A stretch of DNA of 64,000 bases from Spirochaetales bacterium. GTDB lineage: Bacteria; Spirochaetota; Leptospiria; Leptospirales; Leptonemataceae. The notes below the pieces were generated by a model that saw only the letters and a list, made by a program, of their open reading frames with translations, made no database searches and was not told the origin of the DNA. This document shows positions 23,677 through 29,023 of this stretch, one piece after another (positions within the stretch are counted from its first letter, which is position 1; each line of letters begins with the position of its first letter). Location of the stretch: positions 1,488,001 through 1,552,000 of the forward strand of contig JABTUL010000001.1 in NCBI GenBank assembly GCA_015075425.1, written 5' to 3'. The translations under genes and the position numbers were made by a program.

Positions 23677-23750
23677 CTACAGTAAAGGAAAATTCGATTT
23701 TTCGTTTGCCTGGCCACAGGGATGCGCAATGCCGGTGTATGGTTGGCGGC

Positions 23751-24257
23751 ATGGCAACTGTAGAAATTGAAAAGCTCAATACGGTCGCAACAAGCGTGGA
23801 GTCCTGGCTGGAGTTCTGCGAATACAGTATGCAGACGCCTTTCTACAGGCTGGCCATGGAGCGGCTCAAGGATCCGGAAAAAGCGGCCGCACTCACGCTT
23901 TTACGCAGTTATCTGTCCACTTTTTCCCAGCTGGAAAGGCTGCGTCTGGAGCGCGATGCCGAATATTTCTACGGTTATGCCCGTGGATTCATTAATGAAC
24001 TGGCAACCTATCGCTATTCAAAAGACGGCTATGATCATGATGTGCGGGCCGTTTTTATTGGCAAAATCCGCAAACTTTTGAATGAGCAAAAAGGCGAGTC
24101 CGGTGCCATCAAAGATTATGCGCGCTATGTATTTATCCGGACCATTGTTCGCTTTTGTTCGTCGCTGGAATACATATTAGAGATACATGATCTTTACAAA
24201 GAATTTCTTTTCCGTGAGCTGCCCCAGATTCCCGAATCACGCCGACCCCGGGACTGA
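23751..24257 (+). CDS. Helical protein of unknown function
   Basis: A 168-residue, almost wholly alpha-helical soluble protein that I do not recognise. It is rich in Leu, Arg and Tyr, with no signal peptide, membrane helix or metal motif. Its stop codon overlaps the start of the DUF455/ATP-grasp fusion gene (TGATG), so the two are translated together and probably work together. The ATG at 23751 was chosen over one 45 bases upstream because it begins the helical region and lies further from the eno promoter. It could be a small partner or adaptor (inference). Confidence 0.55.
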   Translation: MATVEIEKLNTVATSVESWLEFCEYSMQTPFYRLAMERLKDPEKAAALTLLRSYLSTFSQLERLRLERDAEYFYGYARGFINELATYRYSKDGYDHDVRAVFIGKIRKLLNEQKGESGAIKDYARYVFIRTIVRFCSSLEYILEIHDLYKEFLFRELPQIPESRRPRD

Positions 24258-26167
24258 TGTCAGGCCTTTTACGGATCTTAGAAGGCCGCAGTTTACAGGA
24301 GAAGCTGATCCCCCCCTCAGCAGAGGATCTGGATTTAATCCGGAAAGGACCGCTGCCGGTTTTACCCGGCCGCCCGGTAGAGCTTGCCCCGCGAGTGGAG
24401 CGTCCCCCGCCATTTCGCGAATTTTTGGTTCGCGATGATCCGCAATCACATGGCCGCATACTGCACCACTTTGCCAATCATGAACTGCAGGCCATTGAAC
24501 TGGCGGCCGCGGCCCTGCTCCGCCACCAGTCGGCTCCGTCAGGCTACAGGCTGGAGTTGCTGCAGCTTCTGATCGACGAACAAAAGCATTTACACTTCTA
24601 CTTGCAGCGAATGCAGGAACTGGGTGTTACCTTTGGTGAGCTGCCGCTCAGCTTTCACTTCTGGAATTCACTCCATAATACGCCAGACTACAGGTCCTTT
24701 ATTTGTGGTATGAATCTCACTTTCGAGCAGGCGAATCTGGATTTTGCCGTGGAGTATCGCTGGCTTTTCCACAAAAGGCATGATCATGCCAGCGCCCGCA
24801 TCCTTTCCCGCATTCTTCACGATGAGATACGGCATGTGAGTCACGGGCTTCGCCATCTGGATGCGGATACCCGGGAACAGTGGACTCTTTACCGGAAAAA
24901 TTTATCGCCGCAACTGAGCCCGATTCGGGGGAAGGGGTCTTTGTTCAGTAAAGCCGCCCGCCGCCGCGCAGGGTTTGGCGAAGAATATATAAATACTATT
25001 TTTTTATTTTCTGATTCGCGAGGCCGGCGGTCCACGGTCTATTATTTCAACCCGCCGGCGCAGGGCAAGCTCCATCAGATTCTAAGCTCTGATTTTGGTA
25101 TGCTCATGTCGCTTCTGGCAGCCCCCGATGATGTGGTTCTTTACCCGGGAGTGCGACCGGAATTTCTGCTGGAAAGTCGCAAACTCGGTCTGCACCATTG
25201 CCGCTTCAGTACTCTTTCAGAACTCGACCGCACTCCGGGGGGCTTTGTCCCTTTCGAGCAGAACGAGCGAGCCCGGCAGATGGTCGAGCAACTCTTCCGT
25301 CAATTCACGGGCTTCTCAGGGGCAATGCCGATTTCTATCCCGGGCCGCAGTGAATTGCTCCGCCTGGCGATGCAGGTAGTTGGCCCGACAGAAGGTCCCT
25401 TTGAGCGAGCCCTTTTCCCTGATCTCAAGTCGCAGTTGATTTCCCTTGTTAAACGCTGGCCTGGTAAACTGGTACTCAAGCGGGAGAGAGGAGCTTCAGG
25501 CCACGGGTTTGCTTTCACGGAATCCGGAGAGATGCCGCAAGATCTTACCCCTTTCAGTGTTGTGGAGACCTGGGTCGATCGGCTCGCCGATGTTTCCTGT
25601 CTTTTTGATGTTTGCGCAGACGGAAAGATCCGGCATACGGGCTTTACCCGCTTTTTTACCAGCAACGGTCTTTACCGGGGCACGGCCATCGGGCCGGCCC
25701 TTCCGGGGAGAGATTTTTCCAGGCTGATGGGCCGGATGGAGGAGCTGGCCACGAGAATCGGGCCACTCCTTGCTGCATCGGGCTACCAGGGTCCTGCGGG
25801 CATCGATGGCTATCTATACGCCCATCGGGGCGAGATTTTTGTGCAGCCGTGCTCGGAGATCAATTTGAGGTTTACTTTTGGTCATCTGTCCTTGCGCCTG
25901 CAGCGCATCCGGAGTGGACCGGGTCTTTTCTGGATCCTGCCGGCCAGACGGGCTCTGGAGCTATACCGAACAAAGCCAACCGGAGTCCTTTTTCTGACCG
26001 ATCCCTTGCTGGCCAGGCGATTTGCAGCCGTTCTTCTCGAAGGAGGCCCGCTGCCGGAACTATTCGATCGGGCTCTCCAGCTGGAAAGTCCGGCAGGCGC
26101 GGAAAAAAGCTGGCGGCAATCGGCAACTGACTCGAAATTGAGTCTATGGCTGCCGTCTGGAAGATGA
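24257..26167 (+). CDS. DUF455 ferritin-like domain fused to an ATP-grasp domain
   Basis: A 636-residue two-domain protein. Residues about 60-205 form a DUF455/MiaE-like four-helix bundle with diiron-type ligands: E76 or E81 in NHELQAIE, E108 and H111 (DEQKH), E157 or E166, and E190 and H193 (DEIRH). Residues about 240-550 resemble an ATP-grasp ligase: a pre-ATP-grasp part, GKLVLKRERGASGHGF (K404/K408, glycine-rich loop), VVETWV, then metal-binding EINLRFTFG (E534, N536). This pairs a possible oxygenase with a possible carboxylate-amine ligase in one chain. Neither substrate is known. Its stop overlaps the next start. Confidence 0.72.
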   Translation: MSGLLRILEGRSLQEKLIPPSAEDLDLIRKGPLPVLPGRPVELAPRVERPPPFREFLVRDDPQSHGRILHHFANHELQAIELAAAALLRHQSAPSGYRLELLQLLIDEQKHLHFYLQRMQELGVTFGELPLSFHFWNSLHNTPDYRSFICGMNLTFEQANLDFAVEYRWLFHKRHDHASARILSRILHDEIRHVSHGLRHLDADTREQWTLYRKNLSPQLSPIRGKGSLFSKAARRRAGFGEEYINTIFLFSDSRGRRSTVYYFNPPAQGKLHQILSSDFGMLMSLLAAPDDVVLYPGVRPEFLLESRKLGLHHCRFSTLSELDRTPGGFVPFEQNERARQMVEQLFRQFTGFSGAMPISIPGRSELLRLAMQVVGPTEGPFERALFPDLKSQLISLVKRWPGKLVLKRERGASGHGFAFTESGEMPQDLTPFSVVETWVDRLADVSCLFDVCADGKIRHTGFTRFFTSNGLYRGTAIGPALPGRDFSRLMGRMEELATRIGPLLAASGYQGPAGIDGYLYAHRGEIFVQPCSEINLRFTFGHLSLRLQRIRSGPGLFWILPARRALELYRTKPTGVLFLTDPLLARRFAAVLLEGGPLPELFDRALQLESPAGAEKSWRQSATDSKLSLWLPSGR

Positions 26168-27421: not shown

Positions 27422-29023
27422 ATGCTGTTCAAACTTTTACTCGAAAATCCCGAGCTTTCGAGCACAGACACTTCTCTGGCCCACCTTCTGATCCAGCTGG
27501 AAACACCGCCGGTTTCGGAGTCGCCCAATCGACGGCCCCTGGTTGTGGGACTGGCCATCGATAAGTCTAAATCGATGTACGGTGAGAAGATGAATGCCAC
27601 CATTGAGGCAGCGTCTGCTCTGGTGAACTGGCTGACCCGCCATGACCACCTGGCCATCGTGGCTTATGACTCAAACGTTGAAGTTGTTCAGCCGCTGATT
27701 CCGTTGACAGATAAATTTTCCGTCATCAAAAAGCTGGAAAATATCCGCGTGGGAACTTCCACGAATCTGAGCGGTGGCTGGTTGCAGGCGCTTAAATCGG
27801 TCGAAGCGGCAGATGTAGAGAATGCTTTCCGTCGCGTGATTCTTCTAACAGATGGAATGGCCAATACGGGTGTGGTCAGCACCAAGGATCTGGTGGGCAT
27901 TGCCGCCGATCATTACAAGCGCGGGATCAGTACCACCACGATCGGTTTTGGCCAGGATTTCTCTGAGAACTTGCTGCGCGAAATTTCCGTTTCCGGTGGC
28001 GGGAATTTCTATTTTGTGGCCGGGCCGGAACAGGCCCATGAAGTTTTTTTCCGGGAATTTGGCGACATCGCTGCTCTCTTTGGCCAGGGCCTGGAGATCA
28101 AGCTCCGGCCCGCGCCAGGTGTCTCCATCAAAGAAATCATCAACGATGTCCCCTACAACAGCACCGAAGATGGGGCCTATGTACTCCGCCCGGGGGATCT
28201 GCGGTCAGATGATTTACGTAATATCGTTGTGGTCCTTGAAGTCAATGGGGGCGAAGCCGGTGATGCTGTCTCTCTGATTACCGCCGAGCTTTCCTTTTAC
28301 AACCTGATTGAAGGTTCACGGCTGGAAAAGCACGATGCGGCCGTGATGGTGAATTTCAAGGCACGGCCATCAGACGGGTACAACAAAACGGTACGAATGG
28401 AGGCGCTCATCGCCGCTTCCAGCAGGGCCATGATTGAGGCCTCGCGCATCACCAATGAAAAGGATCTTTCTGCGGCCAGAGATGTGCTTAACGGTATGAT
28501 TCGTCGACTGGAAAGTCACGTGACTCTCGACAAAGAAACGATAGAGCGACTGATCCGGCGCCTGCAGGAGATGGAACGCAATCTGGAAGAGAATTTGAAT
28601 CTGGCACGCAAGCACCTCATGGCCAGCGCCTCAGAGATGGGCCGCAGCTTTGTGTATGACTACCATTTCTCTGGCAACGTCCATGACCGCATTCTGGAAA
28701 CACAGCTTAAAGGGCAGCTCGATCTCTACCGCTGTCCGGAACTCAAGGCAGATATCAAGCGCCAGATCGATGCAGGGTACCGTTACGTGATCTTTGACCT
28801 CACGGATCTTCAGTATGTCGATTCTTCCGGCATAGGCACACTCATCCAGATCAGTAACTGGATGAAAAAGCGGGCCGGCCTCATGGTTCTTGCCAATACT
28901 CAGGGAAGCGTGGACAAAGTCTTTGCCATGAGCAAGCTGGACGAGTTTTTCGTTTTCAAAGATACGGTTTCTGAGTCGCGATTATTCCTCGAAGAACACA
29001 TCGCCGCTCAGGGCAGGGTATAA
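27422..29023 (+). CDS. VWA-STAS fusion protein
   Basis: A 533-residue soluble protein that joins two regulatory domains. Residues about 35-230 are a von Willebrand A domain with an intact metal site: DKSKS (D47/S49/S51), the Thr in GTSTNLSGG, and LLTDGMANTG. A beta-rich section and a coiled coil (about 365-415) follow. The C-terminus, about 420-530, is a STAS domain of the anti-sigma-factor-antagonist type, with the phosphorylation turn YVDSSGIGTL (S468). A VWA module tied to a STAS switch suggests adhesion-type assembly controlled by a serine kinase. No kinase or phosphatase partner lies nearby. Confidence 0.82.
   Translation: MLFKLLLENPELSSTDTSLAHLLIQLETPPVSESPNRRPLVVGLAIDKSKSMYGEKMNATIEAASALVNWLTRHDHLAIVAYDSNVEVVQPLIPLTDKFSVIKKLENIRVGTSTNLSGGWLQALKSVEAADVENAFRRVILLTDGMANTGVVSTKDLVGIAADHYKRGISTTTIGFGQDFSENLLREISVSGGGNFYFVAGPEQAHEVFFREFGDIAALFGQGLEIKLRPAPGVSIKEIINDVPYNSTEDGAYVLRPGDLRSDDLRNIVVVLEVNGGEAGDAVSLITAELSFYNLIEGSRLEKHDAAVMVNFKARPSDGYNKTVRMEALIAASSRAMIEASRITNEKDLSAARDVLNGMIRRLESHVTLDKETIERLIRRLQEMERNLEENLNLARKHLMASASEMGRSFVYDYHFSGNVHDRILETQLKGQLDLYRCPELKADIKRQIDAGYRYVIFDLTDLQYVDSSGIGTLIQISNWMKKRAGLMVLANTQGSVDKVFAMSKLDEFFVFKDTVSESRLFLEEHIAAQGRV

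Follow-up and report, generated by a model that had tools for sequence, protein, structure and literature searches.

Why should a single bacterial gene join a DUF455 domain to an ATP-grasp ligase, and do the two parts act on the same molecule? The question is raised by a gene at positions 24257..26167 (+ strand, as are all features described below) of the window, i.e., the whole stretch of 64,000 nucleotides that was analysed, which comes from a Spirochaetales bacterium of the order Leptospirales. Translation yields an uninterrupted open reading frame of 636 aa, with an ATG at 24257 and a stop codon ending at 26167; the start overlaps the stop codon of the upstream gene (TGATG), and at the 3' end there is an overlap with the next gene (26146). 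A genome search identified it as the only DUF455 gene of the source genome, none was found in 14 control genomes, and plasmid copies were looked for and not found. The original prediction for this locus, a DUF455 bundle fused to an ATP-grasp ligase, was borne out by Pfam, by relatives and by profile and fold searches.

The surroundings of the gene include two proteins that merit a remark. The upstream gene (23706-24257), encoding a 183 aa protein with no family match, is found in conserved form in most of the window's family; it was considered as a partner of the fusion and rejected, as it is unlinked to it elsewhere. Further downstream (27422-29023), a 533 aa protein shows an unusual pairing of a VWA domain (1.5e-18) with a STAS domain (5.3e-19).

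Two domains with conserved active-site residues

Residues 1-262 (24257..25042) form a DUF455 ferritin-like four-helix domain, as assigned by Pfam, AlphaFold2 and Foldseek. PF04305 (DUF455) matches residues 49-245 with an E-value of 2.9e-39 (135.6 bits against a cut-off of 34.3), and a separate AlphaFold2 model of this half (pLDDT 81, pTM 0.86) contains four helices, at 62-89, 95-121, 145-173 and 177-201. Each helix bears predicted metal ligands: E76 in the first (24482..24484), E108xxH111 in the second (24578..24589), E157 in the third (24725..24727) and E190xxH193 in the fourth (24824..24835). E, ExxH, E and ExxH, one set per helix, is the usual diiron pattern, and the full putative set is invariant in 75/75 relatives. 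It had been proposed that E108, H111, E190 and H193 are the key residues; all four are right, and to this incomplete list E76 and E157 must be added. A check for ligand loss revealed none, with close and distant homologues retaining all ligands, including the stand-alone DUF455 proteins in the alignment, which also keep all six.

The N-terminal half is probably a ferritin-like domain, judged from its modelled helices and ligand pattern, and most likely a diiron, O2-dependent oxidase or oxygenase, where "oxygenase" is a label that we infer from its ligands and class of fold. The best single Foldseek match is an aldehyde-deformylating oxygenase, and the match is weak (E 8.7e-3, probability 1.00, TM <=0.49 by query length). 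Bacterioferritins, including a mini-bacterioferritin, follow at similar scores. Both the weakness of these matches and the occurrence of the same ligands in ferritins count against the oxygenase reading. Alternatively, the domain might serve to regulate or protect the ligase, as a metal-binding, ferroxidase-like or redox-sensing module, an assignment consistent with the bacterioferritin matches and with the ferritin-type ligand motif, by which iron oxidation or storage would be possible. However, in addition to the ligands, H75, E81, N160 and D162 are invariant (75/75 relatives), suggesting a substrate-shaped site, and the best single fold match is to an oxygenase; we regard such a regulatory or protective role as unlikely. 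Profile matches of this half to viral nucleoproteins in the PDB were taken as chance.

The second half, comprising the ATP-grasp domain and a preceding subdomain (residues 263-636; 25043..26164), is supported by the A2 profile and Foldseek, the ligase being assigned to residues 263-631. The A2 profile matches residues 259-631 at 2.4e-98, a value to be read in the light of the window protein itself having contributed one of the nine sequences in A2. Neither Pfam nor NCBIfam matched the C-terminal half of the window protein itself. Nonetheless, L026, a homologue that is split off as a separate gene, reaches 28.5 bits in Pfam's ATP-grasp family, above the gathering score of 27 bits, two further homologues lie near this cut-off, and a nine-relative profile finds solved ATP-grasp enzymes, the best being 7r8p (9.7e-7). 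With the AlphaFold2 model, Foldseek returns ATP-grasp peptide ligases, PurK, BesA and 7r8p, from 2e-7; the confidence of the model is modest in this half (blocks of approx. 35-76 pLDDT), and its detailed geometry is not usable. Because of the L026 score, the nine-relative profile and the Foldseek match, this half is, as judged from profiles and a predicted fold, an ATP-grasp ligase; a C-terminal fold of another kind, which would have spoken against the original prediction, was tested for and was not what these three lines of evidence indicated.

Two basic residues predicted to bind ATP and a set of acidic or Asn residues predicted to bind Mg are in place. R364 (25346..25348) occupies the site of the first ATP-binding Lys (a Lys in 70/77 relatives, Arg in 4/77), followed by the predicted ATP-binding lysine K408 (25478..25480; 76/77), the predicted adenine-side hinge residue E437 (25565..25567; 74/77), the predicted first Mg ligand D517 (25805..25807; 77/77) and E534-x-N536-x-R538 (25856..25870; 76/77, 77/77 and 77/77), which is predicted to supply further Mg ligands and an arginine. 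Of the residues originally named for this site, K408, E534 and N536 stand; K404, found in 8/77 relatives, does not, and R364, E437, D517 and R538 were missing from the list. A common W-G motif at 333-334 is absent from the window protein. The conservation of key residues over three deep groups is far beyond chance.

Fused and adjacent genes with a shared history

It had been suggested that genomes should exist in which the domains are separate neighbouring genes, and such genomes were found. Sampling covered three bacterial groups, i.e., Bdellovibrionota, a deltaproteobacterial group and Leptospirales, with phylum labels that rest on a few loci. Among 111 related loci, 45 encode fused proteins, 48 encode pairs, 17 encode the ligase only (5 at contig ends) and 1 encodes DUF455 only. 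In the pairs, DUF455 comes first, and nearly all of the genes overlap or abut; four pairs with large apparent overlaps were read as over-extended open reading frames. Family f2 (Leptospiraceae, of the window's order) has two genes, DUF455 first, overlapping by 22-35 bases. Distribution within the window's own family is patchy, with the fusion in 4/22 genomes. The ligase half finds matches in 62/291 genomes of the phylum of a Bdellovibrionia genome, in both fused and paired forms, and in 95/237 genomes of the phylum of the deltaproteobacterial UBA6601 genome (E <= 1e-15). In the latter phylum, all of the best 20 loci, which were those examined, are fused, and a lower-scoring group of ligases of roughly 310-500 aa stands alone.

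Some loci depart from this arrangement. Stand-alone relatives of the ligase half (L164-L171, L173, L174 and L178; roughly 310-500 aa) have no adjoining DUF455, and one of them matches LdmS weakly. Three genomes from one genus of the window's family (loci L012, L017 and L019) contain a short DUF455-like open reading frame (165-179 aa) with no adjoining ligase. In genome G024 (L040, L035), the DUF455 gene has no ligase next to it, and a relative of the ligase half lies on a different contig.

The two halves were likewise compared by trees. In that of the DUF455 half, a fully supported long branch parts the ligase-partnered domains, which form one clade, from stand-alone DUF455, and a single clade (support 96) contains every true split pair of Bdellovibrionota and family f2. 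The ligase-half tree independently contains exactly one change between fused and split states (support 98). L058, a "split" case in the first tree, was rejected as a broken frame in a draft assembly. The halves have thus been co-inherited, and a single fission or fusion followed by joint inheritance would explain the pattern of one split clade in both trees. The window protein is among the most divergent members and has the longest branch in the first tree of the N-terminal half. Since members of two phyla are united in the split clade, and since a topology that keeps every spirochaete ligase half in one group is mildly rejected (p-AU 0.0175), transfer between phyla is suggested, tentatively so owing to the long branches.

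Could the two halves have unrelated jobs and have been joined or kept adjacent by chance? Many bacterial neighbours are functionally unrelated. However, this explanation is already contradicted by the distribution and can hardly be right: there are 45 fusions and 48 pairs, the latter nearly always overlapping, the order of the halves is the same, and the three deep groups in which they occur differ otherwise in their neighbours. Because fused or overlapping neighbours occur in approx. 90 relatives from three groups, the two parts very probably act together as one two-step enzyme.

A proposed two-step enzyme

Bdellovibrionota pairs lie in a near-fixed order of peptidase M28, SUV3-like helicase, DUF455, ATP-grasp and a divergent class II aldolase, an order not found with fused forms or in other groups. 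Loci L090-L112 have the pair directly behind the SUV3-like RNA helicase. No third gene is conserved among the neighbours across groups, no conserved precursor-peptide or transporter gene was found nearby, and the fused proteins have no recognisable third domain, their N-terminal extensions being probably mis-called starts. With no third gene or domain in common, the two-domain unit looks self-sufficient. Cytochrome oxidase is encoded in 46/48 genomes of the class, which makes a link to aerobic respiration uninformative as to oxygen dependence.

Our preferred reading, to which we assign a probability of approx. 0.6, is that of a bifunctional enzyme that would form an amide or peptide bond with ATP and oxidise its substrate or product at a diiron site. 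The ATP-grasp half would use ATP to activate a carboxylate as an acyl phosphate and then couple it to an amine, whereas the DUF455 half, presumably with bound iron, would carry out an O2-dependent oxidation of the same molecule, either preceding or following ligation. The two active sites would constitute one obligate unit for which no other dedicated gene is needed; hence, the substrate would more probably be an amino acid, small peptide or other ordinary metabolite of wide availability than a dedicated precursor. Among the solved ligases that come closest in profile and fold are amino-acid/peptide ligases (7r8p, 8ynd, 3wvq and BesA 8yi6). Against an amide ligase, it must be noted that the fold search gives PurK-type ligases scores as good as those of peptide ligases and thus does not settle the bond type.

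A different target is conceivable, in that the ligase half might modify a macromolecule (protein, tRNA or wall component), with the diiron half hydroxylating the same site. This would agree with the lack of a conserved precursor-peptide or transporter gene and with the Bdellovibrionota pair almost always following the RNA helicase. Nevertheless, the helicase linkage is absent from other groups, and the substrates of the nearest solved ligases are free amino acids or peptides, which makes a macromolecular target quite improbable.

The bifunctional enzyme could be specified further. The original prediction read the fusion as a sign of a new modification or small-molecule pathway; the fusion itself stands, and neither partner genes nor a substrate were identified for a pathway. 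It is possible, and no more than tentatively proposed, that the protein acts by itself as an oxidative amide ligase of two domains, with a hitherto undescribed modified peptide or amino-acid conjugate as its product, and that this enzyme has spread across Bdellovibrionota, a deltaproteobacterial group and Leptospirales. This would tie the uncharacterised DUF455 family to a specific enzyme chemistry. Moreover, the fused form is a single gene, apparently partner-free, which allows direct expression and screening and makes the function of this DUF455 branch testable.

Comparison with known systems

The N-terminal half is a clear member of DUF455 (PF04305), and its ligands occupy the positions seen in stand-alone members. 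Stand-alone DUF455 proteins in the window's class differ in having no adjoining ligase and lie across a very long branch from the window's type. In the literature searched, with most subscription journals outside coverage, no function for DUF455 is described; queries on DUF455, COG2833, 7R8P and ferritin-like domains with ATP-grasp yielded nothing functional and no paper on the combination. The aldehyde-deformylating oxygenase, the weak best fold match of this half, has no ATP-grasp partner.

On the ligase side, we equate 7r8p (SAOUHSC_02373) with LdmS (L-aspartate--L-methionine ligase), because the weak NCBIfam match of the relatives is to LdmS. This best profile match shares a similar G-x-Y-x-G stretch with the ligase half; however, it lacks a diiron half. 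The LdmS equivalog NF047900 (NCBIfam cut-off 475 bits) does not match the window protein, and the relatives score 12-25 bits. The PGM1-type and BesA ATP-grasp peptide ligases (3wvq, 8ynd and 8yi6) have the same fold and catalytic layout as those predicted for the ligase half. BesA belongs to the same pathway as BesC, a diiron enzyme of haem-oxygenase-like fold, and the Bes enzymes are encoded by separate genes in a larger cluster. In the window protein, by contrast, the diiron part appears to be ferritin-like and is fused to the ligase. The pairing of BesA with BesC may nonetheless be regarded, by analogy, as the closest conceptual parallel to the two-domain protein described here.
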